DNA of 27,434 nucleotides from Chrysochromulina tobinii (Eukaryota > Haptophyta > Prymnesiales > Chrysochromulinaceae). Made by a program: the position numbers and the translations under genes. A model generated the notes under the pieces. It searched no databases and was not told the DNA's origin. It was given only the letters and a program-made list of their open reading frames with translations. Position 1 is the stretch's first letter; each line of letters opens with the position of its first letter. The DNA lies in contig JWZX01002323.1 in the NCBI GenBank assembly GCA_001275005.1, positions 1 to 27,434 of the forward strand, read 5' to 3'. This document shows positions 1,954 to 26,276 of the stretch, in pieces.

Positions 1954-2125
1954 TGAAGGCAATGGCGGCCCTGCCGTTCCCGGCGCGCGCCCTCGTGAGC
2001 TCATGATGACTGTGTAGCCAGCTCACGCCCGCGTCGTCGTGAGCTCTCCCTCAGCTCACGCCCGCGTCGTCGTGAGCTCTCCCTCTACTTGTACGAGGCG
2101 TCGTCGTGAGCTCTTCCTCTACTTG
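1911..2125 (+). repeat. Duplicated C-terminal coding sequence and 33-bp repeats after gene A
   Basis: The last codons of gene A (GGCGGCCCTGCCG ... GTGAGCTCAT) recur imperfectly at about 1966-2004 beyond the stop. Then CAGCTCACGCCCGCGTCGTC repeats with 33-bp spacing (2019, 2052), with a partial third copy. This is the 3' UTR or flank, showing the same duplication habit as the introns. Confidence 0.75.
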
Positions 2126-8800: not shown

Positions 8801-11800
8801 CCGAGCCCGCAGCCCACTCCTGCCGTGTAAAGTGAATACGAATTGGGTCCGCCGTCGTTGCAAATCCCATTCTCGGCTCCGAAGTTCTCAGGATCGGAGA
8901 TGGAGAGGGGACCGCCGCAGGTATTTTCGCACACGCCCAAGACGTTCAGCGAGATGTTCGTCGAAAAGTTGGAGCAGCTGGCCGTAAAGGGCGTTAGCGG
9001 CGAAGGGGAGGGTGGCATGTAGGAATTGGTTGGCTGATTGTTGGATGGTGTCGCTGTGCAGTTTCCGTTGAGCAGAATTCGGCTGCGATCGCCAGAGATC
9101 CCAAGCAGCACGTCAAGGTCGCCGTCACCGTCCATATCCGCCGCCGCAATCGAGTACGTGTTCGTGCTGCCGGGTAGCGTGATGCTCGTCGGGAAGGTGC
9201 CGTCGCCCGCGTTGAGCAACACTCGGCTGGGACTGTCAGCATTCCCAAGCAGCACGTCGAGGTCGCCGTCGCCGTCCACGTCCGCCGCCGCGATCGAAGA
9301 AGTGACCGCGACGTTGCCGGGCAGCATGGTGCTTAGGTAACTGTTGCCCGTCTTGCGCAGCAATCGGCTGGGACTGTTCTCGTTCCCAAGCAGCACGTCG
9401 AGGTCGCCGTCACCGTCCAGATCCGCCACTGCGATCGACCTCGTGTTTGCGCTGCCGCCGGGCAGCGTGACGCTCGTCGGGAAGGTGCCGTCGCCCGCGT
9501 TGAGCAGCACTCGGCTGGGACTGCCAAGGTTCCCAAGCAGCACGTCGAGGTCGCCGTCGCCGTCGATGTCCGCCGACACGATCGAGAACGTGTTCGACAG
9601 GTTGCCGGGCAACACGGTGCTCGTCGGGAAGGTGCCGTCGCCTGTGGTGAGCAGCAATCGGCTGGGACTGTTATCGTTCCCAAGCAATAGGTCGATGTCG
9701 CCGTCGCCGTCCAGATCCGCCGCCGCGATCGAGTTCGTGTCCAAGCTCTCTTTGGTCAGCTCGATGCTCGTCGGGAAGGTGCCGTCGCCCGCGTTGATCA
9801 GCACTCGGCTGGGAATGCCATCGCCATAGTTCCCAAGCAGCACGTCGAGATCGCCGTCGCCGTCCACGTCTGCTGCCGCGATCGAGCGCGTGGGCGCGGC
9901 GCCACCGGGCAGCTCGGAGCTCGTCGGGAAGCGAAGCGGCTGGCGCGGGCCGCAGTCAAAGCAGTCGGTGCCGTACGGGCAGATTGAGGAATATGATAAG
10001 GGGCCACCGTCATCGCAAGCGGCGTTGGATGCGTCCTCGCATGTGTTCGAGCAGCCGCCGCCCTGCCCGCCGCCCGCGTTGAAGAGGACTCGACTGGGAG
10101 TGCCAGAGATCCCTAGCAGCACGTCGAGGTCGCCATCGCCGTCCACGTCCGCCGCCGCGATCGACTCCGTCTCCGCGCTGCCACCGGGCAGCGTGATGCT
10201 CGTCGGGAAGGTGCCGCCGCCCGCGTTGAGCAGCACTCGACTGGGACTGCCCGCGTTCCCAAGCAGCACGTCCAGGTCGCCGTCGCCGTCCACGTCCGCC
10301 GCCGCGATCGAGCTCGTGTCCGCGAGGGGGGCAGGCAGCGCAACGTTCCTTGGAAAGCACGCTGCTGCTTGGCATCCGCTGAGATGAGTCGAGTTGAGTT
10401 GAGCCACGTTGAGTACCACTTGGCTGGTCGTGAGCACCACTCCAGAGCTCAGAGTAGGTGAGTTCGAGTTCCCCAGCAGCACATCCAGGTCGCCGTCGCC
10501 GTCCACGTCCGCCGCCATGATCGAGTTCGTCTGCGCGTTGCCGCCGGGCAGCAAAAAGCTCAGCGACGAGGTGAAGTTTGTGGCGGTTACGGCTCCGCCG
10601 CCCGCGTTGAGCAGCACGCGGCTGGGACGGCCAAAGTTCCCAAGCAGCACGTCGAGGTCGCCGTCGCCGTCCAGATCCGCCGCCGCGATCGAGCGCGTGA
10701 TTTCACCCGCAACGTATGGCAGCGCGATGCTCGTCGGGAAGGTGCCGCCGCCCGCGTTGAGCAGCACTCGGCAGGGGCCGCCTTCGATTGCAACCAGCAC
10801 GTCGAGGTCGCCATCGCCGTCCACATCCGCCACCGCGATCGACTTCGTGTTCGCGCTGCCGCCGGGCAGCATGTTGCTTAGGAATCGGGTCACGATTTGG
10901 GTGCTGCCCAGTGGCGAGGACGTCAGAGCGATTCGCGCCAACGGCTTCGGCAGGCGCAGGCATCCGGGCTCGGAGGACGACGTGTTCCAGAGCCGTACTC
11001 CATTCAAGGAGCACGCCGGCGGCAGGAGCGCAGCTCTGACTCCTGGCGCGGGCTTCGGGCGAGCAGGCCTGGGCATGGCGACGCAGCCCACTCGCCCTGG
11101 CGCCGAGCAGTTGGGCGGTGCGAACGCCGTCGGGTGGCCGCCCGGCCGGAGGTCCCGCGCATAGTCCCGCGGCGGAGGGTACTGCCGGCGACCTCGGGGT
11201 GGAACGTAGGTCCAGCCAGGCTGCGCTGGTCGGGGAGGCTGTGAAGGCGGGCGCGAGGGTGGCGAAGGCGGGCACGGGGGTGGTGATGGCGGCGGCGGCG
11301 AGGGCGGCGGCGAAGGCGGCTCGGGCGGTGGCGATGGGGGTGGCGATGGCGGAGGCGGCGAGGGCGGTGGAAATGGCGGTGCTGGCGGCGCCGCTGCCTG
11401 CGTTCGAGGTCCGCAGTCCCCGCAGTCGGTGCCGAGGAGGCAGTCCGAGAACTCTGCACCGGGTCCACCATCGTCGCACAAACCATCCGAGGCGTAAGCT
11501 GGGTGTCCGACGCACGTGTTGGCGCAGGAGAGAAATGGCGGGGGCGCCGGTGGGGACGCTGCCACAGCCTCCGGTGAAGGAGGTGCCTGTAAGCTTTGAC
11601 GATTTCGAGTCCCGCAGTCGGAGCAGTCGGTGCCATACTGGCAACTTGTGTGCGCGGAGCCCGGGCCGCCGTCGTCGCAGATGCCGTCCGAGGCCCACTG
11701 AGGGTTTCCGATACACGTCTCGGCGCAGAGCAAGGTCGAAGGTGGAGGCGGGCGAAGCGCGGGTGGAGGCCGATTGTCGCCGCCGGCAGTAGTTCGAGGG

Positions 11801-12744
11801 CCGCAGTCGGCGCAGTCGGTGCCGAAGGGGCAGTGCGAGAACTCGGATCCGGCGCCACCATCGCTGCAGATCCCATCTGAGGCGTACACGCACGTCTCCT
11901 GGCAGCCCGCGTCAAAGGGGGCCGAGGGCGGCGCACGAACCGGCTGCCCTGTCGAGTTGGCCGAGGTGTCTGAGCTGGGCGCGTTGGCCACAGCGCAGAT
12001 GGTAAAGCCCGACGCTACGACCGAACCATCGGTCAACCAGGTCATGATGGTTCCGGCAGCCACTTGCACATTCATCGGCCCATTGGTCAGAGCACCGCCC
12101 TGGTATTTTCCCCCGTTGAGAGTGATGAAATCGTAGCCATACTCGGTGGAAAACTCAGTGGTGGTGATCGTCATCGATTGTTCCACGCGCATCTGGCAAT
12201 ACTCGTTGTTGCCGTAGGGTCCCCAACCATCGGTGACGCACATGCCGTCCCACGAGACCTCACAATACGATGAGCCTTGAAGAATCGTCCACTTGACAGT
12301 CGGCGATGGCGGCGGCGGCGGTGACGCCACCACCGGTGCCAGGGGAGGAGATGGTAACGGTGGCGATGGTGGTGGTGGTGGTGGTGATGGTGATGGTGGC
12401 GGTGGTGGCGATGGGGATGGTGGCGGTGGTGATGGTGATGGTGGTGGTGGAGATGGTGATGGTGGTGGTGGTGATGGTGGTGGTGGCAACATTCGAGGGC
12501 CGCAGTCGGCGCAATCGGTGCCGAAGGCGCAATCAGAATACGCGGATCCGGGTCCGCCATCGTCACAATAACCATCCGAGGCATACTGAGGAGCTCCGAT
12601 GCACGTTAACAGGCACAGCTGCGCATCGGCGTAGCCCATCATCAGGACGAGGAAGAGCATGCGGGCGAGCCGAGGCGCGGCCCCGAAGCGGCCCACCGAT
12701 CTGCGCCAAGCAGATTCATGATCTGGCGTGGTGAAGCTCACCAT
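2878..12744 (-). CDS. Giant FG-GAP/LNR-like/GCC2-GCC3 cell-surface membrane protein, 3,288 aa
   Basis: One uninterrupted reading frame. The first ATG is 12744; a later ATG at 12660 begins directly at a short signal-like MLFLVLMMGYADAQ. The frame is open further upstream, but only from GTG. Order (residues approximate): signal 29-42; LNR-like Cys module (ASDGxCDDGGPG...GTDCxDCGPR) 44-84; SPPPP tract 86-149; CUB-like domain 149-254; three more LNR-like modules 279-447; second Pro tract to 510; fourteen FG-GAP/VCBS repeats 630-1460 with DVDGDGDLDVLLGN calcium-loop cores and two LNR-like modules inserted; GCC2/GCC3-type repeats (CPAGTY/CxxC) 1470-1900; a region with the RRLQ motif; and from about 2370 some eight hydrophobic segments. 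The cytoplasmic tail is Ala-rich. FG-GAP and LNR modules are extracellular adhesion or calcium-binding folds, so an adhesin or surface receptor is inferred. The partner is unknown. Confidence 0.9.
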   Translation of the reverse strand: MVSFTTPDHESAWRRSVGRFGAAPRLARMLFLVLMMGYADAQLCLLTCIGAPQYASDGYCDDGGPGSAYSDCAFGTDCADCGPRMLPPPPSPPPPSPSPPPPSPSPPPPSPSPPPPPSPSPPPPPPSPPLPSPPLAPVVASPPPPPSPTVKWTILQGSSYCEVSWDGMCVTDGWGPYGNNEYCQMRVEQSMTITTTEFSTEYGYDFITLNGGKYQGGALTNGPMNVQVAAGTIMTWLTDGSVVASGFTICAVANAPSSDTSANSTGQPVRAPPSAPFDAGCQETCVYASDGICSDGGAGSEFSHCPFGTDCADCGPRTTAGGDNRPPPALRPPPPSTLLCAETCIGNPQWASDGICDDGGPGSAHTSCQYGTDCSDCGTRNRQSLQAPPSPEAVAASPPAPPPFLSCANTCVGHPAYASDGLCDDGGPGAEFSDCLLGTDCGDCGPRTQAAAPPAPPFPPPSPPPPSPPPSPPPEPPSPPPSPPPPSPPPCPPSPPSRPPSQPPRPAQPGWTYVPPRGRRQYPPPRDYARDLRPGGHPTAFAPPNCSAPGRVGCVAMPRPARPKPAPGVRAALLPPACSLNGVRLWNTSSSEPGCLRLPKPLARIALTSSPLGSTQIVTRFLSNMLPGGSANTKSIAVADVDGDGDLDVLVAIEGGPCRVLLNAGGGTFPTSIALPYVAGEITRSIAAADLDGDGDLDVLLGNFGRPSRVLLNAGGGAVTATNFTSSLSFLLPGGNAQTNSIMAADVDGDGDLDVLLGNSNSPTLSSGVVLTTSQVVLNVAQLNSTHLSGCQAAACFPRNVALPAPLADTSSIAAADVDGDGDLDVLLGNAGSPSRVLLNAGGGTFPTSITLPGGSAETESIAAADVDGDGDLDVLLGISGTPSRVLFNAGGGQGGGCSNTCEDASNAACDDGGPLSYSSICPYGTDCFDCGPRQPLRFPTSSELPGGAAPTRSIAAADVDGDGDLDVLLGNYGDGIPSRVLINAGDGTFPTSIELTKESLDTNSIAAADLDGDGDIDLLLGNDNSPSRLLLTTGDGTFPTSTVLPGNLSNTFSIVSADIDGDGDLDVLLGNLGSPSRVLLNAGDGTFPTSVTLPGGSANTRSIAVADLDGDGDLDVLLGNENSPSRLLRKTGNSYLSTMLPGNVAVTSSIAAADVDGDGDLDVLLGNADSPSRVLLNAGDGTFPTSITLPGSTNTYSIAAADMDGDGDLDVLLGISGDRSRILLNGNCTATPSNNQPTNSYMPPSPSPLTPFTASCSNFSTNISLNVLGVCENTCGGPLSISDPENFGAENGICNDGGPNSYSLYTAGVGCGLGTDCADCGPRFLTYSIAAADVDGDGDLDVLLGNEGSPNQVLRNDGGGTFVSIELPGGSTKTYSIAAADVDGDGDLDVLLGNKGFSGVMLNSGGGTVTASTFPQQLSIELPGGSAWTRSIAAADVDGDGDLDVLLGNDGSFQGSRSRVVPFTRCSAFGTARSRYGNGCVRCPAPSSRRDDAFDVCSECDEHSQVDGSGECVACTEGSERFLGATRCTRCPAGKRHAAKGTGCIACSPGEYVNFQGLFDPSSCLPCLPGSYSPTFGASTCTPCAPGTFTSDLNSLTCSACPSSAQGGYYCPEGAKAAMPCPAGTHKNASLSVITSVSQCVACPVGTSCSVGSAVPVPCAPGTYNNQPGQRTCVECAAGSFQNLEGQTSCNACSPGYYCAEGAGAELPCPAGTKKHPSLSVMTSVDQCVDCPVGTSCSVGSTVEVPCAPGTFQNQTRQAACLKCPAGFYQDRTGQTSCIPCTAGGYYCTQGAAAALPCPGGTRRNPSLSDVTLMTSPDQCVACPIGTSCSVGSAVAVPCAPGTYNNRSRQETCLKCAAGSFQMLAGQTSCSPCTPGYYCAEGAATPVPCPGGKFNNRTGLESADGCVPVGFGYWAPTGSVFPIPCPSGFSCPGYFNDVNTSGSQPLILPTGGLTPVVAVETQTVETITGSISLNAPLSSFLNDTALQLQYRQTLAAQLGIPWQDLQLDFSEAPPSAGRRLQTGSTVLTYIIVRTVTTNPTAPRPDTNSSNATTSNVTTSGPPFVAPSFALNNLDPAVLGAALGVSVAALMAPTATVVQQTVTVIRERVCPRGFWCTAGVEVACEQGFYNPNTNAASQTACLRCPEFSTTNGTAATNVSECVCQASFVRQMDAAGSPQCVCAAGRELIGGVQCAPCKIGTYKDWTGENFLRNPLGPQKCLDCPVPQTTTEQEGADSISQCVCEVGTFASLTRAEMMQATNDSSGVAADAFECRSCVSIQDSGGSQMTNCTALGVMLDTIPVTPGHWRQNPIAQYVRMCDLEEACLGGEIAGDTSCANGHTGPVCDLCVQDPLHFGGRGAPCQLCSDVGDPMFTITFYAVGGVVVLLAIALAMAICKRRATRVAKTALALARKDEEGKDGRHGRIKRRATSRIKLTEEAAQSLAASAGVSEATWSRLAQLAALVGSFGVKIRILISLCQVVGQLGLIFDVTYPAFYTETLKSISNINIPFQLLPFGCIFPSLNNFIFDLVLKTATPIILVLMLSFFSKVLRARSGGSGFGVFLADACSDLWFFIIFLVYPSCSTMTFMFFMREAYDEPGEVYVDLMRADRSINREEPLYQSFTAYAIAMLVVYPIGVPLLYALMFHRSRHQLHEMRRIELTLETDFALAKLEAEAAATPEETDEMVRRAIEVHKASGEALENLRGELPTTLRKLTAGYELRTYWFEIFECLRKITLIGLPIFFPPGSPPQLIFGLIICFLSYGAYCVCSPYIRDDDDFLAQVAQVIIFFSLVSSVVTNAFPEDPLMRVLLPALLAVPVILTFIFETPLLEFLRSFTEPDKEGNVGLVGQFILAFRRHTLRITDRLVGAVGQEEAKSGMRAVWEEHSKELGASALVRVRSSQSSFTTLSTSEPSARHADMPVAGPSERLAPNDGGAAISQQSPNDGGAAPKVRAQVLQVRGNLRTLVHVADQANQEATAAFAAAMTVAGEGKKTPVPDGHSMLVNKTLAPWTFLSNRTAVAAAAAKVVDNAPVDKAAKAAKADKAVMNHLLQLDPTALETELRSLGETKQVSEAPACNEGGNQVSEAPGSWRATVAPGGPPWELVDSGDSLEGLAELRAVLRLFTRELEAVKHADHDYERMQRMLVIFLRLVQTRSASERLELAPLLQALHKVQHIQAIVHKALLRTQHRMVPAAFEQWRDTYLAANHKRALAGMAPRDSDARDGVGGGANGSSESISTPELHSTIQSESISTPELHSTAPLSVMTWLANLGSDRGRRGSKEPSEAHLDA
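2975..3058 (-). repeat. 42-bp in-frame duplication in the gene B tail
   Basis: A 14-codon unit (SESISTPELHSTIQ) occurs twice, 42 bp apart, at the C-terminal end of gene B. The frame is kept. Confidence 0.85.
3486..3543. repeat. 39-bp in-frame duplication carrying intron-type filler inside gene B
   Basis: A 19-bp direct repeat (CAGGAGCCTCGGAGACCTG) at 3486-3504 and 3525-3543 flanks ATTGCCTCCCTCATTGCATG. On the + strand this reads CTGATTGCCTCCCTCATTGC, the same element that fills the introns of genes A and C, but here antisense to the host gene. In gene B it encodes VSEAPACNEGGNQVSEAP. Confidence 0.9.
12340..12490 (-). repeat. Ser/Pro-coding microsatellite (first hydroxyproline tract of gene B)
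   Basis: On the + strand this is a GGTGGTGAT/GGTGGCGAT run. On the coding strand it gives PPPPSPSPPPPSP, typical of O-glycosylated wall or surface proteins. Confidence 0.85.
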
Positions 12745-13080
12745 CAGGGTGAGGTAGAGGTCGCGCGCAAGACGGACAAATGCTGGCGAACAAGAGGGCA
12801 GCAGCCGGCAGCGCGAGAGAACCCCGCAACCTGCCGATCGATTCCATTCTTGGACGAGCACATTCCGCGTTTTCCCCACAGGGGTGCCTAAAAAGGTTTG
12901 GGAATGTGGTTGTGAGCCAGGTCATATCAAAGAGTCCCTACCACAACGAGAGAGTACCGAACTTGGCTCCTTTGGCTAGCCAAATATAAACAAAGGGCGG
13001 AGATTCAAGAGTCAAGTCCGCAAAAGAGTAATCCCCTCAAGGTCAGTTGCACAGCGAGAGGCCTCGCAGAGGATTCTCAG
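12745..13080. promoter_or_regulatory. Upstream region of gene B, shared with divergently transcribed DNA
   Basis: Lower GC than the coding flanks. On the - strand a TATA-like GTTTATATTTG lies at 12981-12991, about 240 nt before the first ATG of gene B. Nothing else is recognisable. The promoter call rests on position and one weak motif. Confidence 0.3.
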
Positions 13081-13109
13081 ATGGTTCTGTCGGGCTATCT
13101 TCCTGCTGA

Positions 13110-13420
13110 TGGCTGCGGCGAGTTTGCGTTGCTCCGTTCCCGGCCTCACGCGATGCCCCCCTCATCAACGACCCCGACGCACTCCTTCGAGAATACGCCG
13201 GTGTCGACAGTCATCTCAGGTAAGACCCGACATCTGCACCAAGGTTGAGAATCGTACGAGTTCCCGAAGCACTCCATACCCCTTAGAGCCGAAGTTACAG
13301 GTTTACTCTTTTCCACTCGACCAATCGAGAGTTCGAAAGTTCCGCGACAAAAACAACATTTAAACCATTGACATCCTCAGACGACCCAGCGTTACAAGCG
13401 TGACGAGGACGAAATGCTAA
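13110..13420 (+). CDS. Possible short gene or gene fragment, 3' end, two exons
   Basis: A coding-looking stretch (INDPDALLREYAGVDSHLR) ends at 13219 on a strong donor (CTCAG|GTAAGA). An acceptor (ACATCCTCAG) lies at 13380. Joining in phase adds RPSVTSVTRTKC and a TAA at 13418-13420. The upstream frame meets a TGA at 13107-13109, so a 5' exon or loss of the 5' end must be assumed. It could be a decayed fragment or the tail of a small gene. An alternative is a 5' UTR intron of gene C. Not recognised. Confidence 0.3.
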
Positions 13421-13553
13421 AAGCGACTCGGGGGGCGAACGTCAGGAGCCTTGCGCGATCCGCGCTCCAACCTCTTCTCCCCCCCCTTGAGGCCCCTTTG
13501 TGTGACGGAACGAGCACCGCACACTTTTTTTTTGTCGTCTCCCGCGGGCCGAC

Positions 13554-16500
13554 ATGGCCGACAGCGACCTGGCCGCACTCGAGCGGTGCGTGGCGGCCTT
13601 CTACTCCGGCTCGCAGGAGCACATGGCGCAGGCGGACGCGGCGCTCGCGCCTGCGCGCGAGCACCCGCGGCCGTGGGAGCTACTGCAGGCCATGGCCGCG
13701 AGGGGCGCGAGCACTCCCGCCGTGCTCTACTGCACCACGCTCGTCGACACGTGGGTGCAGCGGCGGTGGCGGTGGGCGAGCGCCGAGGAGCACGCAGCGT
13801 GCAAGGGCACACTCGCACCGCTCGTGGTCGGCGCGGCCGCTGCCCAGCTCGGCAAGGAGGCCGAGATCCGGGCGGCGAAGCTCGAGGGCGTGCTCGTGCG
13901 GCTGCTCCGGCATGACTGGCCCGACGGCTGGCCCGACTTTGTGCCGTCGCTGCTCGGCGCGGCGCTGCCACCGGCCGCCGTGCTGCGCATCTTCCACCAC
14001 ATTGGCGAGGACGCCCTCCGCCACGGCGGCCCGCGCCGCGCCGACGCGGTGCGCGCGGCGCTCGCTGCGCAGTTCGGGCCTGTGCTCGAGTTGTGCGGGC
14101 ATGCCCTCGGCGGAAGCGAGCCGCCCGCGGCGGCGCTCGCGGCTGGCGTGCTCGCCCGCTTCGCCCCTTGGCTCCCTGAGCACGCCATCCTCCAGCCTGG
14201 CCTACTCGCGCCGCTGCCATCGTTGCTCGGCACGTCCCTCACGCGGTCGGCGGCGCTGCAGCTCGTCGCGACCCTCGCAGCAATGGCACCGCCGCCACTG
14301 CTGGCGTCTCAAGAGGCGGGTGCGGCGGCGGCGGCGGCGGCGGCGCAGGTGCACTTCGAGGCGCTGCGGAGTGCTGTCGGCATGCTCCACGTACACATCC
14401 CGCTCGAGCGTCTCGCAGGTGATGGCATGCTGATTGCATGCTGATTGCATGCTGATTGCATGCTGATTGCATGCTCCACGTACACATCCCGCTCGAGCGT
14501 CTCGCAGGTGATGGCATGCTGATGGCCTCCCTAATTGCACCTGATGGCCTCCCTAATTGCGCCTGATGGCCTCCCTAATTGCACCTGATGGCCTCCCTAA
14601 TTGCACCTGATGGCCTCCCTGATTGCACCTGATGGCGTCCCTAATTGCACCTGATGGCCTCCCTGATTACACCTGATGGCCTCCCGCTCGATCGTGTCGC
14701 AGCGACCGGTAGCATCCCGGGGTGGACGGAGGCGCAGCTTTCGCATGCCGCCGCGGCGCTCGCTTTCCTATGGCACCCGGGCCGGCACGCGCTGTGTCGG
14801 TCACCATCGGGCGCGGCGGTGCTGGCGCAGGTGCGATGGCCTCTCATGTCACCTGATGGCGCCTGATGACGTTTGATGACGTCTGATGACGTCTGATTAC
14901 GATGGGATGGATCCTCCGCCTGATTACGTCTGATGACGTCTGATGACGTCTGATTACAGGTGCTCAGCATGATCGCCGCGTTTGCCGACGGAGCGGCGCA
15001 CTCGGGCGATGACGAATCTCTCAAGCTCGGCTTCGAGATCGCGACCTCATTAGCGGAGGAGGCGCCCTCATTCGCGGCCTCATTAGCGGCGTCATCAGCC
15101 TCATTAGCGCCCTCCTCAGCGTCCGCCTCGCTCACCACGGCGCTTCACGAGGCGCGCTCGGCTTCGGTGAGTGCATGCTGATTGCCGCCCTCATTAGTGC
15201 CGGCCTCGGTGCGGCTGTTGTGCCAACGCATGCGAATACCCGCCCTCATTAGTGCATGCTGATTACTGCCCTCATTAGTGCCAACGCATGCGAATACCCA
15301 TCTTGAACCCGCCATGAGCGCCGCCTCGAGCGCCTGAGTGTGGGCTGACGTGATTGCGTGTGATCAGGTGAGGCTGCTCTGCCAGCGCTGATTGCCCCCC
15401 TCATCAGGCTGATGACGTGATTGCGTGTGATCAGGCGAGGCTGCTCTGCCAGCGCTGATTGCCCCCCTCATCAGGCTGAGTGCCCCCCTCATCAGGCTGA
15501 TGACTCCCTCATCAGGTGAGGCTGCTCTGCCAGCGCATGCCGCGTCCACCCTCAGTCTATGTTTGGGCAGATGATGCGCTCGAGGATCACTCAAACTGGT
15601 GAGTGGCCAGCTCGCCTGCTTCCAGGCTGAGTGCCCCCCTCATCAGTCTGATTGCCCCCCTCATCAGGCTGATTGCCCCCCTCATCAGGTGGGATGCCGG
15701 CTCGCCTGCTTCCGGCGTCCAGCACAGTGCCCGGCACGGCGCGTCGCAACCCAAGGTGGTGCATGAAGACGATGTCGACGAGGAGGTGGTGGAGCTGGAG
15801 GTGGAGCTCCCTTCGGAGGCAAGCGATCTCGACGCTGAGCTCACACCGTGCTCACACCCTTACCCCCCTTCCCTACCCCGACTCTGCTCCTCCCCCTCCC
15901 TGCCTAATTAGGCAAGTGACGCCGACGAAGAGCTCCATCGCATTGCCGCCACAACGCTCGCCAGATTGCTTCTCCACGCAGGCACGCCCGCCACGACGCT
16001 CGCCAGATTGCATCACCACTAACGCCCGCCACGACGCTCGCCAGATTGCATCTCCACGAACAACCCGCCCACCGCACTCCTCCGCGCGCATGCAAGTGCT
16101 CACCACGGCGCCATCCCATCCCTCCCTAATTAGGCACGCCCGACGCTCACCACGGCGCCCCCGCGCTCCTCCGCGCCCTCTACGACGAGCTCCAGCGCGC
16201 CACCGGCCGCGGTGGCAACGGGTGCGCGCCTGATTACGTCTGATTTCTTCGGATTACGGCTGATTACGTCGGATGACGGCTGATTACGGCCGCGGTGGCA
16301 ACGGGTGCGCGCGCGCCTGCCGTTACTCATGGGCCCTCGGCATGCAAGTGCTCACCACGGCGCCCTCGCGCCTCTCCCCACAGGTGCGCGCGCGCCTGCC
16401 GTTGCTCGTGGGCGCTCTGCGCCGCCGCCGACGGCGCGCCGGCCGAGATTGCGATCTCGACCTTGGGAGGTGCGCTCGCGCTCGTGCTCACGGCGGCGCG

Positions 16501-19500
16501 CGCGGCGGCACGTGCCCACGGCGGCGCGGGCGACGCGTCGATCTGCTTCGCGAGGTGAGATCACACGAGATCGCATGAGATCACACGAGATCGCACGAGA
16601 TCGCACGAGATCACATGAGATCACCCCTCCTGAGTGCCCCTGGCCCCCTGAAGCCCCCGCCGAGCCCCCTGTCTACCTCTGCTGATTACCCTATGATGCC
16701 CTCCATTACCCTATGATTCCCTCCATTACCGTATGATGCCCTCCATTACCCTTTGATGACCTCCATTACCGTATGATTCCCTCCATTACCGTATGATGAC
16801 TTCCATTACCGTTGTGGATCACCGCTCACCGAGGTGCTTGTCCGCTGCGTGTGCTCACCACGGCGCTGCGTGTGCTCACCACGGCGCTCGCAGCTGCGTG
16901 TGCGTACTCGTCACCCTCCATCCGCGCTGCGGTGTGGTGACGAATGTGGTGACGAGTGCGGGCAGCGCCGAGAGCGTCGGCAGTCTGGTAGAGGCTCTCT
17001 ATGAGTACGTCCGCTGTCGATTTGCCATGCTGATTGCCATGCTGATTGCCATGCTGATTGCCTACCTCATCAGGTATGTCCGATCTCCCTCCGAGCCACT
17101 ATGCTGATTGCCTCGCTGATTGCATGCTGATTGCCTCCCTCATCAGGTATGTCCGGTCTCCCTCCGAGCCACTTTGCCGCATGGCGGGGCGTGCGCTGTG
17201 TGCCCTCTGCACCGAGCCCGCCGCGGCCACAGCACTGGTGAGTGGCCCGAGTGCCCCCCTCATCAGGCTGAGTGCCTCCCTCATCAGGCTGAGTGCATCC
17301 CTCATCAGTCTGATTGCCTCCCTCATTAGTCTGATTGCCTCCCTCATCAGTCTGATGTCAAGCTATGGTGTGCCCATTGCCAAGTCTGATTGCCTCCCTC
17401 ATCAGCCCGATTGCCCCCCTCAGGTGAGCGGCCCGTCGCCACCGCTTCTGATTGCCTCCCTCATCAGGCCGATTGCCCCCCTCATCAGGTGAGCGGCCCG
17501 TCGCCACCGCTTCTGACGATCTTGCACTCGCTACCCGCCGTCCTGGGCACCCCACCTTTCCTCTCCGACGGTGCCCTCGGCGCCTTGCATGCCGCCCTCG
17601 CGAGCTCCGTGCGCGAGGCGGCGCGGCATGCGCCCGGGACGGCGCCGGGCGCCGCGCCGGGCGAGGCGACCGAGCAGACCCTCCAAGCGCTCACCACGGC
17701 GCTCCTCGCCTACGCGGATGGACGATGGGACGCGCTCACCACGGCGCTCCACGGCGCTCTCATTGCCACCGGCGCTGGTATGGAAAGCGCTCACAACGGC
17801 GCTGGCCTGGGCGGCGGCGGCATGGGCGGCGGCGGCGGCGCAGCAGCAGCAGCGAGCGTGCTTCCTAATTTGGCGAAGGAGGCAGCGAGCGTGCTTCGGC
17901 TCTACCGGCACGTGGTCGTGCAGCTCGGCGGTCGGAGATTGCAACCTCGCTTGATCTCGATGCTCCCTGCGATTCGAGCGTTGGTCGACGCCGCTGCAGC
18001 CGAGCAGGCGAGTCTCGTTAATTGCCTCTCATCTGGTCTCTGATGGCCTCTGATTACCACCGACTGCCACTGATGGCCTCTGATGGCCCTCTGATTGCCA
18101 CTAATTGCCACTGATGGCCACTGATGGCCCTCTGATGGCCTCTGATGGCCACTGATGGCCACTAATTGCCACTGATGGCCCTCTGAGCAGGCTAGGCTGT
18201 ACGTCGCGACGGGCGCCGTGTTGGGCTACGCGCATGCTACCGGTACGAAGGAGGCGCGCGCGCTCAGGACGGCGCGCACCGAGGCGCTCCGTTTGCTGAT
18301 CGCGTGCGCTCATCATTTTGAGGCGCCACCGCCGCCATCAACGGCTTCGTCAACGCCATCAACGGCGGCCCTCGGCGCTCCCGTCGATGCCGCCGCCGAC
18401 GCTGCCGCCGGTGGCGGCGGCGGTGGCGGAGGCGGAGTTGGTGGTGGTTATGGAGGAGGAGGCGGAGGCGGCGCTCGAGGCGGCGCTCGTGCGTTCACAG
18501 CTCGTGCGTTCACAGCTCTGGACAGTGCCGAGACAGAAGCGGCGGCGGCGGCTGTGTTGCATCGACCTCCACGCTCGTCCAGCGAGAGAGAGCTTCATCG
18601 CAGCCATGCGGAGGGTGCCCAAGCGCTCCTTCCACTGCTCTCGGGCTGGCTGCAGGTGATTGCATGCTAATGACCCCCCTGATTGCATGCTATAGTGCCC
18701 AAGCACTCCTTCCACTGCTCTCGGGCTGGCTGCAGGTGATTGCCTGTGATTGCCTCTCTGAGTGCCACGCTGATGACCAACGATGACTGGTGACCAGATT
18801 ACGATCATTTCGTCACTGTGAACCATTGAGAGCACGCCCCTGTGGCGAGGCGCACGATGACGAACCCTGTGGCACCACTGACGAACCCTGTGGCACCACT
18901 GACGAACCCTGTGGCACCACTGACGAACCCTGTGGCACCACTGACGAACCCTGTGGCACCACTGACGAACCCTGTGGCTCCACTGACGAACCCTGTGGCA
19001 CCACTGACGAACCCTGTGGCTCCACTGACGAACCCTGTGGCTCCACTGACGAACCCTGTGGCTCCACTGACGAACCCTCACGCCCCTGTGGTCGCACGGT
19101 CGCAGGAGCTTGTGCCTTTGTGCGCGCGTGAGCCAGCGGCCGTCCGTTCCCCACAGCTGATCACCCTCGTCGCCGCCCTCTCGCCCGCCCTACCGGCGTC
19201 AGCCCTCGCCGCTGCCCTCGCTGCCCTCCTCGCCCCCGCGCTCGAGTCGGCGCGCATCGAGGGCAGCCTCACTGGCGCCGGCGGCGGCGGCGGAGGCGGC
19301 GGCGGAGGAGGAGGAGGCGGCGGAGGAGGCGGAGGAGGCGGCGGCGGCGGCGACGGCGGCAGCGGCGGGACGCACGCGGCGGCCGTGCTCTGGCCTGTTG
19401 GAGAGTGCAGCGATCCGACATGACCATCCGATTGCGAGCGCCGCGCCTCCCGAGCTGCGTGCCGAGATCGGTGTGCAATCAACTGATGGCCTTTGATTGC

Positions 19501-20123
19501 GATTCCGATTTGCGAGCCTGATCGCGCGCCTCAGTGCGTCCCTCTCCCCTCTCGATTGCATGCATCATCAGACCTCTCCTCTTGATTGCATGCTTCATCA
19601 GACCTCCCCTCTTGATTGCATGCTTCATCAGGAGTCGCGCTGCTCCAGCTGCTCGACACGCCCGACACGGCGCGGCGCGCCCTCTTCCTCGCCCACACCC
19701 TCGCGAGCACCGGAGCGCTGTCCCAGGCGCCCGAGCACGCCGCCGCACTGCTCGCACCGATGCGACGTGCCCTCGCTGCACTCCCAACGGCAAGGGAGGT
19801 GAGTCTCGTTAATGACCTCTGATGACTGCCCTCGCTGCGCTCCCAACGGCAAGGGAGGTGCGTCTCGTTAATGACCTCTGATGACCTCTGATGACCTCTG
19901 ATGACCTCTGATGACCTCCCAACGGCTCCCTCAGGTGCGCGCGCTGTGCGTCGACGTGGGCGCCCTCCCTGAGACGGGCGACGGCGGCGCCGCGCTATCC
20001 CGGGCGGCGTTGCATGCACGGTTCCTCGGCATGAGCGAGATTGCGTTCTCGCAGCTCGGGGAGGAGTTCTCTGTGGAATCGGAGGCGGAGCACGAGTGCT
20101 TCTGGCAGGCGGAGGCGGATTGA
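13554..20123 (+). CDS. Exportin-type karyopherin (Xpo1-domain), 15 exons
   Basis: Exons: 13554-14418, 14703-14830, 14960-15166, 15516-15598, 15689-15818, 15912-15981, 16134-16221, 16384-16554, 16834-17004, 17147-17237, 17489-18007, 18191-18655, 19157-19470, 19632-19798, 19935-20123, about 1,218 residues. The ATG (GACATGG) opens MADSDLAALERCVAAFYSGS. The first ~290 residues follow the CRM1/exportin N-terminus: VRLLRHDWPDGWPDFV matches the family's EWPxxWPxF helix, then IFHHIGEDALRH and LARFAPWLPEH. Exportins carry cargo out of the nucleus with RanGTP. Length (~1.2 kb codons) is nearer exportin-5 than exportin-1, so the subtype is left open. Introns after exons 5, 6 and 11 use GC donors. Reading phase agrees at all junctions except within exon 13, where a +1 shift falls in a Gly microsatellite. 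Exons 9 and 13 are the least certain. A CCAAT lies at 13321. Confidence 0.72.
14424..14682 (+). repeat. Tandem arrays filling intron 1 of gene C
   Basis: First four GCATGCTGATT units (about 14424-14475). Next a second copy of the exon 1 end (14488-14507, identical to 14399-14418). Then seven 22-bp units of TGATGGCCTCCCTAATTGCA type starting at 14520, 14542, 14564, 14586, 14608, 14630 and 14652. The intron ends at 14683-14702 with an 18/20 copy of the exon 1 end, which provides the acceptor. Confidence 0.93.
14857..14957 (+). repeat. 10-bp array in intron 2 of gene C
   Basis: Repeats of TGATGACGTC/TGATTACGTC, interrupted once near 14900 by GATGGGATGGATCCTCC. The last unit becomes the acceptor TGATTACAG. 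Confidence 0.88.
15167..15515 (+). repeat. Composite repeat intron 3 of gene C with exon 4 start copies
   Basis: Contains CTGATTGCCCCCCTCATCAG-type units, two copies of an AACGCATGCGAATACCC unit, and two near-exact upstream copies of the first 20 bases of exon 4 (GTGAGGCTGCTCTGCCAGCG). Exon 4 itself begins at 15516. Three alternative acceptors are therefore present, each with the same following bases. Confidence 0.88.
15947..16070 (+). repeat. Exon 6 end repeated into intron 6
   Basis: Three copies of a CGCTCGCCAGATTGC-containing unit of about 40 bp. The first is coding (TTLARLLLHAG); the next two are intronic and degenerate, with stops. Confidence 0.85.
16205..16345 (+). repeat. Uninterrupted exon 7-exon 8 junction copy inside intron 7
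   Basis: The last bases of exon 7 plus donor (16205-16229) are repeated exactly at 16288-16312. There they run directly into a near-copy of the start of exon 8 (GCGCGCCTGCCGTTACTCAT versus the exon's TTGCTCGT version). The intron thus holds what looks like the ancestral intronless junction. Confidence 0.87.
16557..16624 (+). repeat. 10-bp GAGATCACAC/GAGATCGCAC array, intron 8 of gene C
   Basis: About seven units directly after the donor AG|GTGAGATCACAC. The donor itself is one unit. Confidence 0.9.
16684..16812 (+). repeat. 20-bp array, six copies, intron 8 of gene C
   Basis: Units of ATTACCCTATGATGCCCTCC with point differences, lying upstream of the exon 9 acceptor. Confidence 0.9.
17238..17488 (+). 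repeat. Filler array and exon 11 start copies, intron 10 of gene C
   Basis: Seven or more CTGATTGCCTCCCTCATCAG-type units. The donor side (GTGAGTGGCCCGAG) resembles the exon 11 start (GTGAGCGGCCCGTC). A full 24-bp copy of that start also sits upstream, behind its own acceptor (CCCCCCTCAG). Confidence 0.9.
18013..18190 (+). repeat. CTGATGGCC-type array, GC-AG intron 11 of gene C
   Basis: Runs of CTGATGGCCA, CTGATTGCCA and CTAATTGCCA make up nearly the whole intron between donor CAG|GCGAGT and acceptor CTGAGCAG. Confidence 0.9.
18615..18735 (+). repeat. 41-bp exon 12 end copied into intron 12
   Basis: Positions 18615-18655 (exon, ending GGCTGGCTGCAG|GT) and 18695-18735 (intron) differ at one base, and both are followed by GTGATTGC. 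Confidence 0.93.
18859..19078 (+). repeat. 21-bp array, eleven copies, flanked by 13-bp direct repeats
   Basis: Units GACGAACCCTGTGGCACCAC start at 18859 and recur every 21 bp to 19069, differing only A/T in GGCACC/GGCTCC. CACGCCCCTGTGG occurs exactly on both sides (18833-18845 and 19079-19091). I place it in intron 12, but it is open in two forward frames (TNPVAPL and TDEPCGT), and one of them continues into exon 13. Confidence 0.93.
19279..19352 (+). repeat. GGC/GGA microsatellite in exon 13 of gene C
   Basis: In the frame entering exon 13 this codes poly-Gly. The frame leaving the exon (HDHPIASAAPPELRAEIG) is shifted by one base, so an indel or a tiny unrecognised intron lies in or near this tract. 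Confidence 0.85.
19557..19631 (+). repeat. 30-bp array, intron 13 of gene C
   Basis: Three units containing GATTGCATGCTTCATCAG; the last one is the acceptor for exon 14. Confidence 0.88.
19769..19857 (+). repeat. Exon 14 end plus donor duplicated in intron 14
   Basis: 30 bp at 19769-19798 recur at 19828-19857 with one mismatch. Each is followed by GTGNGTCTCGTTAATGACC, giving a 59-bp unit that carries a complete AG|GT junction. Confidence 0.93.
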
Positions 20124-21451: not shown

Positions 21452-24400
21452 CCATTCCAGCTCTTCCTGATATCTGTCCTCGTCCTCTGCCGTCCATCTA
21501 ATATCAGGAACAGCTGCTCCAAGTGATTGTGCAGCCCTAAATATGTTTGTCTCAACCATTCCTGCTCCAAGTGATTTTGCAGCCCTTGACTCAACCTTTT
21601 TTGAAGGCTCTTCTCCCTCCTCGCCGTCCTCCTCGTCCTCGCCATCCTCAAATACAGCCTTACCTTGCAGTGCCTTACGAATCAAGGCCTTCCCTTCCTT
21701 GCCAATGAAGTTTCTCGACAGCCTGTACAGGAAGCAGACAGGAAGGTTGTTCACACAGGAGGTATCCTTTCGCACTGGCCGTCACGCGTGAGCAAGGCAA
21801 GTGGCGGTTACAAATCAAGTTCGGTTTTGGGGCGACAAACTTACCCGATTTTGATCAGCCCGCCATTAGCAGTGAGTGCTGGAGCTAGAGCTGCTGCCCC
21901 CTCTGCACCAAGAAGGTTCTGGCTGAGACTGCGCAACAAACGAGAGCATGCAACGGGCCGTCAGCAGGCAAATGGCGGTTCCGGATCTTGAGCGACAAAG
22001 TTACTTGATTTCCGTCAGCGAGCCTGTGACGCTCGTGCGGAGCGCCTCGGCGATCAGCTTGACACCAGCAGGGCCGATGTCCTCGCCGGACACGTCCATG
22101 GACATGATCTTGCTGTCCTTGTTGCCACAGATGGCGGCGAAGATGGCACCCCAGCCCTCGCCCCCGAGCATGTTGCTCCTGAGCTTGATGGACGTCAATG
22201 CGCCATTGACGCGCAGGGCGTCGGCGATTGCAGTGATGCCCTCTGCGGTGTAGATGCCTTGTTGGTCTCGTCTCCAGTCAGTCCAGATGCCGCACAGCAG
22301 GGTTCCGGAGAGGTCGATGCTTGTCAGCCCGCCATTAACACGCAGGGCGTCGGCAATTGCAGTGATGCCCTCGGCGGTGTAGGTGACTAGTTGGTTGCCA
22401 TTGCCGTCAGTCCAGGTGGTGCCACACAGCAGGTTCGCGGAGAGGTCGATGCTTGTCAGCCCGCCGTTGACGCAAATCATATTGGCAACATGCTTGGCTT
22501 CTGCTGTCCCTCTGATGTTGCCGCTGATGTCAAGCTCCTTAAGCGTCTTGTTCTGTTCGAGTGCCTCGCAAATGGCCTTGATGCCCTCCTCCCCAAAATT
22601 GTTGTGGGCGAGTGACATTTTGGTCAGCCCGCCATTAACGCGCAGGGCATCAGCGATTGCAGTGATGCCCTCTGCAGTGTAAGTTCCTCTTTCACAATCA
22701 TCGAGGCCGCACAGCTGGTTGTCGCTGAGGTTGAGGCTCGTCAGCCCGCCTGTGACAACGGCCTGTGACAGGTCCGACGCCAGCAGGATCGCTTCGGGCG
22801 GCTTGAGGCCTTTTTTGGAGAAGTCAGCGGTGGTCTGGTCGCGCTGGATGCCGCAGAGCGAGATACCCTTCTGCTTGGCGACGTCAGCGAGCATCTTGGC
22901 GGACTCTGCATCAAGCTTATTGCCCAGGAGGTCGGTCACCGTCAGCCCGCCAGTGACGCTCGTGCGGAGCGCCTCGGTGATCAGCTTGACACCAGCAGGG
23001 CCGATGTTCTCGTAGTACGTGTTCAAGGACGTGATCTTGCTGTCCTTGTTGCCGCAGATGGCGGCAAAGATGGCGCCCCAGCCCTTGTCCCCGAGCTGGA
23101 TGTCCCTGAGGTTGACGGACATCAATGCGCCATTGACACGGAGAGCGTTGGCAATCGCTGTGATCCCCTCTGCAGTGTAAGTTCCACTCCCAAAATGTTC
23201 GAGGCCGCACAGCTGGTTGCTGGAGAGGTCCAGGCTCGTCAGCGCGCCTGTGACAACAGCCTGTGACAGGTCCGACTCCAGCAGGATAGCATCGGGCGGC
23301 TTGAGGTTCTGGTTGGAGAAGTCAGCGGTGGTCTGATCGCGCTGGATGCCGCAGAGCGAGATGCCCTTCTGCTTGGCGACTTCGGCGAGCATCTTGGCGG
23401 ACTCCGCATCAAGCTGATTGCCCAGGAGGTTGGTCACCGTCAGCGCACCTGTGACAACGGCCTGTGACAGGTCCGACGCCAGCAGGATCGCTTCGGGCGG
23501 CTTGAGGTTCTGGTTGGAGAAGTCAGCGGTGGTCTGGTCGCGCTGGATGCCGCAGAGCGAGATACCCTTCTGCTTGGCGACGTCAGCGAGCATCTTGGCG
23601 GACTCCGCGTCAAGCTGATTGCCCAGGAGGTTGGTCACCGTCAGCCCGCCAGTGACGCTCGTGCGGAGCGCCTCGGCGATCAGCTTGACACCATCAGGGC
23701 CGATGTCCTCGCCGGACACGTCCATAGACATGATCTTGCTGTCCTTGTTGCCGCAGATGGCGGCAAAGATGGCGCCCCAGCCCTTGTCCCCGAGCTCGTT
23801 GCCCCCGAGGTTGACGGATGTCAACGCGCCTGTGACGCTCGTGCGGAGCGCCTCGGCGATCAGCTTGACACCAGCAGGGCCAATGTTCTCGGAGGACGCG
23901 TCCATAGACATGATCTTGCTGTCCTTGTTGCCGCAGATGGCGGCAAAGATGGCGCCCCAGCCCTCGTCCCCGAGCTCGTTGCCCCCGAGGTCGACGGACG
24001 TCAACGCGCCTGTGACGCTCGTGCGGAGCGCCTTGGCGATCAGCTTGACACCAGCAGGGCCGATGTCCTCGCCGGACACGTCCATAGACATGATCTTGCT
24101 GTCCTTGTTGCCGCAGATGGCGGCAAAGATGGCGCCCCAGCCCTCGTCCCCGAGCTTGTTGCCCCTGAGGTCGACGGACGTCAACGCGCCAGTGACGCTC
24201 GTGCGGAGCGCCTCGGCGATCAGCTTGACACCAGCAGGGCCGATGTTCTCCCAGAACGCGTTCATAGACATGATCTTGCTGTCCTTGTTGCCGCAGATGG
24301 CGGCAAAGATGGCGCCCCAGCCCTCGTCCCCGAGCTTGTTGCCCCTGAGCTTGATGGACGTCAATGCGCCATTAACGCGCAGGGCATCGGCGATTGCAAT

Positions 24401-25618: not shown

Positions 25619-26276
25619 GTTTAGCAAGCAGACTCTCCTTTCTTGATTACCCCTCTCCTTTTGTCGCCCCCACAGGGAATCCAGGGTACGACCTTTTTCC
25701 ATGACATTAACTTGGGGCGGGGTAAAGCTGGGGGAAAAGCGGTGCGAGTGCAGTGAAGGATCGGTGGAGTGGATTCTCGATAGATTCTCGAAGTAGAATT
25801 GATTTGGAGCTGTAGATGTGCGTGCGAGCATTGTTTGTGGTTCTCTGCTTTGAAGTGTTTTTCATAACGTTATCATAACGTTCGTCATGCGAAGCTGTGA
25901 ACGCGCGTCCTCTCTCTTTTTTCGTGGCACTTTCGTCGACGGGACCCAAACGTTAGCGAGCGCGAAATCTTTAGATTAAAGTTTAAACGCTTGCGAAATT
26001 TAACGCGAAATTTGGTGTCCGTGGCCTCTTCCAACCCAGTCTAGAGGTCGTCGCGACACCCTGACGCGAACACACACGCTCTCGCTCTCCGAGGTCACAC
26101 TGGAGGACCAGTCAATAGATCAACCCCTAGGGACCTAAAGTCAACATGAGGCCTGAGAGGGAGACTATGGAGGGAGGGACTGAGTGTGTGCGCGATCCCG
26201 ACGACCTGCCCACCACCTCCGCCGCCGCCGCCGCCGCCGCCGCCTCGTCCATCTCCATCTCTCCTTCGCACGGGCG
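25619..26276. promoter_or_regulatory. Upstream region of gene D and 3' flank of SPT4
   Basis: 658 bp without a convincing gene. AT-richer at 25840-26000. It contains a perfect 17-bp palindrome (separate entry) and a CCG microsatellite near 26217-26246. A promoter for gene D is inferred from position. Confidence 0.4.
25866..25882. promoter_or_regulatory. Palindrome AACGTTAT-C-ATAACGTT upstream of gene D
   Basis: Perfect inverted repeat with 8-bp arms and a 1-bp centre. It lies about 250 nt upstream of the chosen start, or 35 nt before the earliest in-frame ATG. A dimeric regulator site is possible; the binding protein is unknown. Confidence 0.4.

Follow-up and report, generated by a model that had tools for sequence, protein, structure and literature searches.

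Described routes of intron gain

Where introns come from is a long-standing question, one that is hard to settle because the footprints of gain usually decay. Introners, as described by Gozashti et al. 2022 (PMC9860276), are flanked by target duplications of 3-9 bp; in some families the element brings only the 3' splice site, the 5' one being drawn from the duplicated target, and in the example from Chrysochromulina sp. the duplications are 4 bp and the element carries the 5' splice site. For Daphnia neointrons, attributed to the repair of staggered breaks, the excerpted account (PMC4202315) gives repeats of this kind of 4-12 bp. Tandem genomic duplication of AGGT is reviewed in PMC3443670, and the accessible part of a report on a potato case (PMC4974935) describes a 5' site derived from an exonic copy together with a branch site and a 3' site derived from an existing intron. 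Direct repeats near intron borders, as abstracted from PMC11782384, were collected for 213 introns of several classes, have lengths of 4-30 bp (mean 11.4), and are read there as insertion footprints.

An exportin-1-like gene with exon copies in its introns

The gene considered here lies on the forward strand at positions 13554..20123 of the window, that is, positions 1 to 27,434 of contig JWZX01002323.1 of Chrysochromulina tobinii. It is exportin-1/CRM1-like and has 15 exons and 14 introns, as judged from Pfam, CRM1 chains, the orthologue P0001, and the exon table. Exon 1 matches Pfam Xpo1 (E 1.2e-8), the gene product matches CRM1 chains (E 3e-14), and the rebuilt product is 43% identical to P0001, a single 1028-aa protein listed on a single 6255-bp contig. 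Exon limits were rebuilt and then checked against this single orthologue; in the first gene model, 11 of the 14 junctions (introns 1-7, 9-11, and 14) fall within blocks aligned to it. Two features of that model, a GA-AG intron 13 and an exon 9 start at 16834, were dropped after P0001 had been read by eye, which favours a GT donor at 19471 and a later start, respectively. Intron 13 now starts at 19471 and intron 8 ends at 16893, both revised by eye from reading frames and the P0001 sequence, and the permutation tests were repeated on the revised model.

An earlier sequence-only reading had held that most introns of this gene carry near-copies of adjacent exon sequence. This is borne out: exon copies are clear in 10 of the 14 introns (1, 3, 4, 5, 6, 7, 9, 10, 12, and 14) and slight or absent in introns 2, 8, 11, and 13. 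The six alignments that it quoted, in introns 1, 4, 5, 9, 12, and 14, were re-measured and agree with its figures; the resulting identities are given with each intron below. Many introns begin with a copy of the following exon. Intron 4 (15599..15688) opens with a donor-flush copy of the exon 5 start (22/27), followed by three 21-nt modules of acceptor A, the first of the two dispersed cassettes described in the next section. The GC-AG intron 5 (15819..15911) likewise has a donor-flush copy of the exon 6 start (18/24), and the insert within it is pyrimidine-rich, ends CTAATTAG, and belongs to neither family A nor family B. In the GC-AG intron 6 (15982..16133), a copy of the exon 7 start is accompanied by two 38-nt copies of the exon 6 end and by an exact match to the core of element B at 16088-16111. 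Intron 7 (16222..16383) has a flush 8-nt copy of the exon 8 start and a second one at 16305-16341 (33/37), the latter immediately after a copy of the exon 7 end (16287-16304) and followed by the element B core (16340-16363) and then CCCCACAG; by its sequence it is evidently the product of nested events. An unbroken junction of exons 7 and 8 lies within this intron; it was set aside as extra proof and not counted separately, because any flush intron shows such a junction after a second duplication upstream. Intron 9 (17005..17146) carries the exon 10 start flush with its donor (8/9) and again at 17074-17104, with acceptor A, and intron 10 (17238..17488) combines a flush copy of the exon 11 start with a perfect 28-nt copy at 17424-17451 and acceptor A modules.

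Copies also occur inside introns or at their ends. In intron 1 (14419..14702) the exon 1 end reappears at 14461-14507, with a copied donor region after it, and once more at 14682-14702, where it is flush with the acceptor (18/20 on re-measurement of the intron end); arrays of 11- and 22-nt repeat units lie between the two. The exon 4 start is copied three times within intron 3 (15167..15515), at 15209-15233, 15368-15388, and 15437-15455, again with acceptor A modules. Intron 12 (18656..19156) holds a copy of the exon 12 end at 18695-18735 (40/41) and an array of 10.5 units of 21 nt at 18858-19078, while intron 14 (19799..19934) holds a copy of the exon 14 end at 19827-19857 (30/31, earlier given as 30-bp) and an 11-nt copy close to its acceptor. 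The acceptor A module at 15670..15688, of the TGATTGCCYCCCTCATCAG type, is one of several in the gene, further ones starting at 15179, 15389, 15456, 15477, 15628, 15649, 17128, 17269, 17311, 17332, 17387, and 17449; all the features named here are on the forward strand. The internal copies in introns 1, 3, 9, 10, 12, and 14 look like later duplications that enlarged an existing intron.

In 10 of the 14 introns, among them all three GC introns (5, 6, and 11), the intron and the next exon open with the same two bases. The comparison with shuffled controls that the earlier reading had called for came out in its favour on the start side, where similarity to the intron's own exon lies far above that of re-paired introns: the anchored score was 76.5, against 31.9±6.2 on re-pairing (reached in 0/100,000 permutations), and with the first 6 bases ignored it was 36.5 against 10.5±5.0 (7/100,000). 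The similarity of intron ends to the previous exon end was weaker (43 against 29.6±3.8, p 0.011) and comes mainly from introns 1 and 11, while intron 14 is conspicuous only if the first 6 bases are left out. Copies of the flanking 60 nt sought without anchoring outscored every one of the 100,000 permutations, whichever side was compared.

Two dispersed cassette families

The anatomy of these cassettes and their occurrence throughout the genome are matters of direct observation. Across the 53.15 Mb searched, exact matches number 590 for acceptor A followed by GT and 461 for the core of element B, in each case on many contigs and with 0 in reversed controls; GC at the sampled loci is 0.60-0.69. 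Similar introns, so called on the basis of reading frame and homology, therefore stand at many unrelated genic sites, seven of those sampled lying in recognised domains. Family A inserts have a terminal TGATTGCCTCCCTCATCAG and a common part of ~20 nt and form tandem arrays. Family B inserts, GCATGCAAGTGCTCACCACGGCGC...CCCCACAG, measure ~42 nt from the start of the core to the AG. Inserts end exactly at AG, and those of family B begin near GCATGC with some variation; inspection by eye of the family B rows revealed no terminal inverted repeats between GCATGC... and ...CCCCACAG. Selection on splicing, too, would fix the 3' end of an insert at AG. In most flush introns the cassette, whether A or B, carries the AG, a pyrimidine tract, and a branch-point-like sequence, and elements within a locus share a strand (133 vs 7). 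The acceptor A-GT sequence had no match in viral contigs and a single one in bacterial and archaeal genomes, in a Lachnospiraceae MAG, which was taken as chance. At the four strongest reverse transcriptase loci, RNase H is present in two, and the stretch read contained no endonuclease domain.

Blind samples comprised 42 A loci and 40 B loci, chosen by exact cassette match, which favours young copies; the control relied on was a mispaired null, which is blind to local repetitiveness. Among the A loci, the upstream copy of the exon start scored at least 15 at 24/42 (mispaired, 0/1722) and at least 8 at 33/42 (49/1722). The left copy was flush with exon-like sequence in 30 of these 33 and followed another acceptor, without being flush, in the other three (L030, L054, and L074). 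For family B, splice-anchored scores of at least 15 were obtained at 19/40 loci (2/1560), and a splice-blind comparison of the flanks gave at least 15 at 25/40 (25/1521) and at least 20 at 23/40 (7/1521); one left copy, which came after another acceptor, was not flush. An anchored copy was absent at 9/42 A loci (score below 8) and at 20/40 B loci (score below 10). The duplications are thus specific to their locus, as in introners, and a repeat of the adjacent exon end, variable in length, stands at the opposite end of the intron, as in gain of the Daphnia type. Ordinary YAG|GT sites of 20 non-blind loci were rejected as a clean background, 55 of these 298 other sites scoring at least 8. Of the 33 that scored at least 12, 14 end CCCCACAG or CCCCATAG, through which family B came to light, and the others include simple repeats.

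Strictly flush duplications measure 11-41 nt in family A (22 single-copy loci) and 14-47 nt in family B (19 loci), and clean duplications are perfect in 13/40, with a mean identity of 94.8%. Upstream exons at the 40 clean loci end in G in 35 cases and have A before that last base in 22. A fixed intron length, suspected from the correlation of duplication with insert length (r -0.64 and -0.76), was rejected: measured from the fixed family B core, r is 0.02, so that the correlation is, for family B at least, an artefact of where the decayed repeat ends. The consequences for coding, had the introns been retained, are likewise read from the sequence. Retention would break the frame in 41 of 49 strictly flush introns (A, 28/30; B, 13/19) and keep it in eight. 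When ten joined peptides were picked from 53 for their long frames, a Pfam domain spanned the junction in seven, L033 being below the Pfam curated cut-off, and the phosphatase, RFC1, and asparaginase alignments continue across the joined junction. That splicing from the first copy would restore the protein is, as far as sequence can tell, supported.

Proposed origin and alternative explanations

These segments are probably introner-like spliceosomal introns that were gained recently, each arising from insertion of a cassette with a direct repeat of the downstream exon; the recent look of the gain and the part played by exon duplication in their formation are both supported. A short dispersed cassette, A or B, would be copied into an exon, and its insertion would leave a direct repeat of 11-47 nt of the exon immediately downstream. 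The cassette would supply the 3' half of the intron, namely the branch-point-like sequence, the pyrimidine tract, and the AG, and the left copy of the repeat, which starts with an exonic GT or GC, would serve as the 5' splice site. Splicing out the left copy with the cassette would then restore the coding sequence, and the intron may lengthen later by duplication of modules and splice junctions. For the copying step, staggered nicks and fill-in at insertion are favoured, and the cassette itself could be copied from intron RNA by target-primed reverse transcription or else arise by template switching linked to repair. We infer the direction of change, the splicing itself, and the copying step; gain over loss is among these because neither an intron-less allele nor a close relative was found. 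A more specific reading, tentative and somewhat short of an even chance, is that the cassettes, with common parts of ~20 nt in family A and ~42 nt in family B, are mobile 3' splice sites spread by RNA- or repair-templated copying. The two strands of the target would be cut tens of bases apart, and the exon sequence duplicated in this way would suffice for both a 5' splice site and a minimum intron length.

The alternative that fares best concerns the copying alone, which may have been break repair with template switching and not reverse transcription: a patch is taken from the 3' end of another intron, and the return is made through GTRCG microhomology. An insert of ~60 nt common to loci on two contigs suggests as much, since a 23-nt part of it (at most 2 mismatches) is confined to them across the genome, in 1 and 3 copies, and GTACGG begins the sequence after the AG at both loci; moreover, the end of the repeat overlaps the first bases of the cassette by 1-4 nt in 9/40 B loci. 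However, the exact AG ends and the family B starts near GCATGC look like those of a unit rather than of an arbitrary patch, and GTRCG may merely reflect a 5' splice-site preference. This route is conceivable yet rather doubtful.

The sequence-only reading had proposed that an exonic AG|GT is duplicated in tandem, by which the whole intron and both splice sites come from exon sequence. Its recent look of gain, its involvement of exon duplication, and its protein restored by splicing stand, but a single duplicated AG|GT giving both sites is not the general route, because it predicts a copy of the previous exon end at each intron end, at which only introns 1, 11, and 14 hint. Introns do start like the next exon, and the expected exon-end copy is at or near the acceptor in introns 1 and 14; intron 6, mostly made of the 38-nt repeats of the exon 6 end together with fragments of exon 7, comes nearest to an intron built of local exon sequence only. 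Elsewhere, copies of the insert are scattered over the genome, the acceptor half being common to hundreds of loci, intron ends resemble the previous exon weakly overall and in few introns, and the base counts at the 40 clean loci indicate that an upstream exonic AG is not required. As a general account it is improbable, and for flush A and B introns it is contradicted already.

It is about equally improbable that junction-spanning duplications merely lengthened old introns and made no new one. The internal copies that follow intron sequence in introns 1, 3, 9, 10, 12, and 14 fit such enlargement, as do sampled loci with two or three copies or with a left copy right after another acceptor, and copies are less well preserved in longer introns (r -0.59 in the 22 single-copy flush A loci). 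A junction duplicated inside an old intron would, however, leave older intron sequence ahead of the copy, whereas the flush copy begins at intron base 1, and in 16 of the 23 B loci scoring at least 20 the core follows within 8 nt of it, so that nothing of an older intron remains. DNA-transposon introners of the ordinary type, whose target duplications are short and of fixed length, met by chance in tandem-repeat-rich DNA, are very unlikely, for although PMC9860276 records introners from a Chrysochromulina sp. metagenome genome, duplication length here varies (11-41 nt in A, 14-47 nt in B) instead of falling within its 3-9 bp, and no terminal inverted repeats were seen in the search by eye.

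Significance and comparison with known systems

Many introns here keep a readable footprint, in which a host-derived splice site can be told from an insert-derived one and the length of the duplication can be read. Identical copies stand beside decayed ones, so that gain, maturation, and lengthening may be traced in one genome. A rule by which the insert gives only the 3' half and the target the 5' half lends itself to clear predictions, both for the splicing of minigenes and for presence/absence polymorphism among strains. If the reading as mobile 3' splice sites is true, they would offer a way of gaining introns in large numbers that is distinct from DNA-transposon introners, AGGT tandem duplication, and short-overhang break repair.

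Judged by sequence, the case appears to be introner-type gain in a new variant, with long variable duplications and short 3'-half cassettes. As far as the available portions of the sources go, it resembles introners (PMC9860276) in its dispersed intron-making families, the 3' site on the element, and the presence of GC donors, and differs in its longer and variable duplications (11-47 nt), the shortness of its common parts (A, ~20 nt; B, ~42 nt), and its A arrays; in the Chrysochromulina sp. example there, the element carries the 5' splice site, in contrast to the 3' half here. The duplications in neither family (11-41 nt in A, 14-47 nt in B) have the fixed 3-9 bp of DNA-transposon introners, and because long variable duplications are unlike those reported for the latter, the copying enzyme becomes a specific question. 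Compared with target-primed retro-insertion of the LINE/SINE type, the 3' end here is fixed at AG, as splicing selection would also fix it, the 5' end near GCATGC varies somewhat, and the duplication is variable. With Daphnia neointrons, in the excerpted account (PMC4202315), the introns share lengthening by later internal repeats, but their repeats are several-fold longer and their inserts fall into two families. The AGGT duplications covered by the accessible text of PMC3443670 and PMC4974935 likewise obtain a splice site from exon duplication, with the protein restored by splicing, whereas here a dispersed cassette, rather than a neighbouring intron or the exon, provides the 3' part. Finally, the direct repeats abstracted from PMC11782384 also lie at intron/exon borders, but those described here belong to one genome and two cassette families and are mostly longer, starting at the splice site.

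An exportin-1-like gene rich in introns

The protein-coding gene on the plus strand at 13554–20123 is exportin-1/CRM1-like, as judged from Pfam (exon 1, Xpo1, E 1.2e-8), structure matches and the single orthologue found, P0001. In a first gene model, the joined protein matched exportin-1/CRM1 structures (E 3e-14) and aligned with P0001 (1028 aa, one 6255-bp ENA contig) at 43% identity across 73% of the query, with the junctions of introns 1–7, 9–11 and 14 (11/14) within aligned blocks and those of introns 8, 12 and 13 outside them. The model was revised by eye against P0001 and the reading frames, moving the start of exon 9 to 16894 and that of intron 13 to 19471. The final version has 14 predicted introns and 15 exons, including three GC-AG introns, each followed by an exon that begins with GC (3/3). 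Exon 13 (19157–19470) carries a frame shift near 19390, after which similarity to P0001 resumes, by eye, in another frame; a decaying exon, a very small indel or a mistake in the assembly might each account for it. On either side of the gene lie two very long uninterrupted ORFs on the minus strand, one of 3347 aa with FG-GAP and ephrin-receptor-like repeats (2878–12921) and one of 1286 aa with leucine-rich repeats (22001–25861).

Introns resemble their own exons

The sequence-only reading had claimed that most introns of this gene contain near-copies of adjoining exon sequence, and this is borne out. Aligned from base 1, intron starts score 76.5 against the starts of their own next exons, compared with 31.9 ± 6.2 when introns and exons were re-paired 100,000 times, and no re-pairing reached that value; without the first six bases, the score is 36.5 against 10.5 ± 5.0 (7/100,000). 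The resemblance of intron ends to previous exon ends is weaker (43 against 29.6 ± 3.8, p 0.011). Unanchored comparisons, both exceeding all 100,000 permutations, find the upstream exon end copied within introns 1, 6, 7, 12 and 14, and the start of the downstream exon within introns 3, 4, 6, 7, 9 and 10. Together with intron 5, whose copy starts flush at the first intron base (18/24), 10/14 introns have an exon copy; the same comparisons found no clear copy in introns 2, 8, 11 and 13. The identities quoted earlier were correct in the six re-measured.

Introns 4, 5, 6, 7, 9 and 10 all open with sequence copied from the start of the exon that follows. Anchored comparison finds no resemblance between their ends and the end of the exon before. 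Introns 3, 4, 9 and 10 terminate in a TGATTGCCYCCCTCATCAG-type module, often in tandem at a 21-nt period; exact GCATGCAAGTGCTCACCACGGCGC occurs in introns 6 and 7, continuing into CCCCACAG in the latter. These modules are read as an intron 3' end: a possible branch point (CTGAT or CTCAC), a pyrimidine stretch and AG. The terminus of intron 5 is pyrimidine-rich and of neither family A nor family B type. Intron 12 holds a nearly perfect array of a different unit (TGACGAACCCTGTGGCACCAC, 21 nt × 10.5) at 18858–19078. Near-element-B sequences (GCTCACCACGGCG) also lie within coding exons at 15130, 16145, 17689 and 17734, where they read as LTTAL or AHHGA; exon 3 has additional residues relative to P0001 at its copy. 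In the neighbouring region 238–1404, an acceptor A module at 238 is accompanied by arrays containing TGATTGC units (56 nt, 746–907; 64 nt, 973–1105; 60 nt, 1191–1404), perhaps introns of the same kind.

Two element families across the genome

The genome (53.15 Mb in 2253 contigs, the window being one of them) was searched for both families. For family A, an acceptor module with a common part of ~20 nt, TGATTGCCTCCCTCATCAG followed by A, C or G has 851 copies and TGATTGCCTCCCTCATCAG followed by GT has 590, GT coming next in 69% of the 851; reversed control sequences gave 0 in the genome. The sample consisted of 52 sites, each from a different contig. The first 100 places listed fall on 54 contigs, all of which were used except two examined before; in multi-site contigs, one site was hand-picked before its flanks were viewed. 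Ten of the 52 were put aside because the stretch after AG was too short or itself a repeat. In the remaining 42, the downstream exon was matched to its best GT-anchored copy upstream, which scores at least 8 in 33, at least 12 in 26 and at least 15 in 24, compared with 49, 1 and 0 of 1722 mispaired comparisons. A strict recount of the 33 left (upstream) copies found 30 flush with exon-like sequence and three directly behind another acceptor. The strict single-copy loci (n = 22) have duplications of 11–41 nt, inserts of 42–177 nt and predicted introns of 68–198 nt. Among 35 sites of an earlier, non-blind sample, 15 scored at least 12, against 0/516.

The 24-nt core of element B has 461 genome copies, and its reversed control has 0. 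The first listed place in each of the first 40 contigs was sampled, and all 40 were counted. Comparing left with right flanks blind to splice sites, scores of at least 15 were reached in 25/40 (mispaired, 25/1521) and of at least 20 in 23/40 (7/1521); the splice-anchored comparison gave at least 15 in 19/40 (2/1560). An anchored copy at 10 or more is absent in 20/40 loci, and among the 20 that have one, 19 are strictly flush, with duplications of 14–47 nt. The 18 strictly flush loci with introns of up to 110 nt show a spacing of 40.1 ± 7.0 nt (28–59) from donor to core and 42.2 ± 3.4 nt from core to AG. Two sampled stretches, L096 (contig C101) and L109 (contig C235), look identical around the element and may be duplicated or allelic segments in the assembly.

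Retention would disrupt the reading frame in 41/49 strictly flush loci (A, 28/30; B, 13/19; before the strict recount, 31/33 and 14/20), and intron length is divisible by three in 12/30 and 6/19, respectively. Ten joined peptides, chosen out of 53 for long frames, were run against Pfam: a domain spans the junction in seven, one of them (locus L033) below the curated cut-off, and three have no match. At locus L090, a dual-specificity phosphatase, the junction falls in VSRSASLVI^AYVM, which aligns across it without a gap to a solved structure; the alignments of L057 (RFC1) and L029 (asparaginase) continue through the junction with small gaps nearby.

Probable gain, growth and candidate mechanisms

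Intron gain, as the sequence-only reading had proposed, is likely on this pattern; pure duplication of an exonic AG|GT providing both splice sites mostly does not hold. Exon copy and core are at most 8 nt apart in 16/23 high-scoring B loci, so that an older intron is unnecessary for these 16. The duplications are young, 13/40 clean ones being perfect (mean identity 94.8%). Copies lying after intron sequence, in introns 1, 3, 9, 10, 12 and 14 and at sampled loci that hold two or three of them, are most plausibly explained by later duplication, by which the intron would be lengthened. Such growth fits the greater length of introns whose copies are more decayed (r −0.59 across 22 A loci).

In the proposed gain, the exon copy would become the donor, and the insert would bring the branch region, tract and AG. 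The last exon base is G in 35/40 clean loci, and GTRCG is favoured at donors. Within loci having three or more elements, one-strand arrangements prevail (133 vs 7), which is what one would predict if the insertions that persist are chiefly splice-compatible. A cut-and-paste transposase is spoken against by the long, variable duplications. An insert of ~60 nt is common to L029 (contig C19) and a second locus, L075 (contig C395), and thus inserts can be copied from locus to locus; GTACGG opens the sequence past AG in both, and a 23-nt part (at most 2 mismatches) occurs genome-wide only in C19 (1 copy) and C395 (3 copies). Candidate routes of copying would be target-primed reverse transcription and repair-linked template switching. 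The genome has 26 matches to reverse transcriptase domains, 22 over the cut-off; at four such loci (L126–L129), most domains lie in long open frames and RNase H is present in 2/4, and no endonuclease domain was found in the stretch read.

Comparison with known systems

Among the titles and abstract openings listed in literature searches with limited coverage of subscription papers, none dealt with long-duplication cassettes in haptophytes. We consider the arrangement quite probably a form of introner-type intron gain, one with an unusually complete footprint. PMC9860276 describes introners with 3–9 bp duplications, some families of which supply the 3' site themselves and obtain the 5' one from the target duplication, as well as a Chrysochromulina sp. 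example of opposite polarity with 4-bp duplications. Daphnia neointrons have 4–12 bp repeats, according to PMC4202315; the AGGT model is among the matters reviewed in PMC3443670, and a potato case outlined in PMC4974935 combines an exonic donor with the acceptor of a pre-existing intron.
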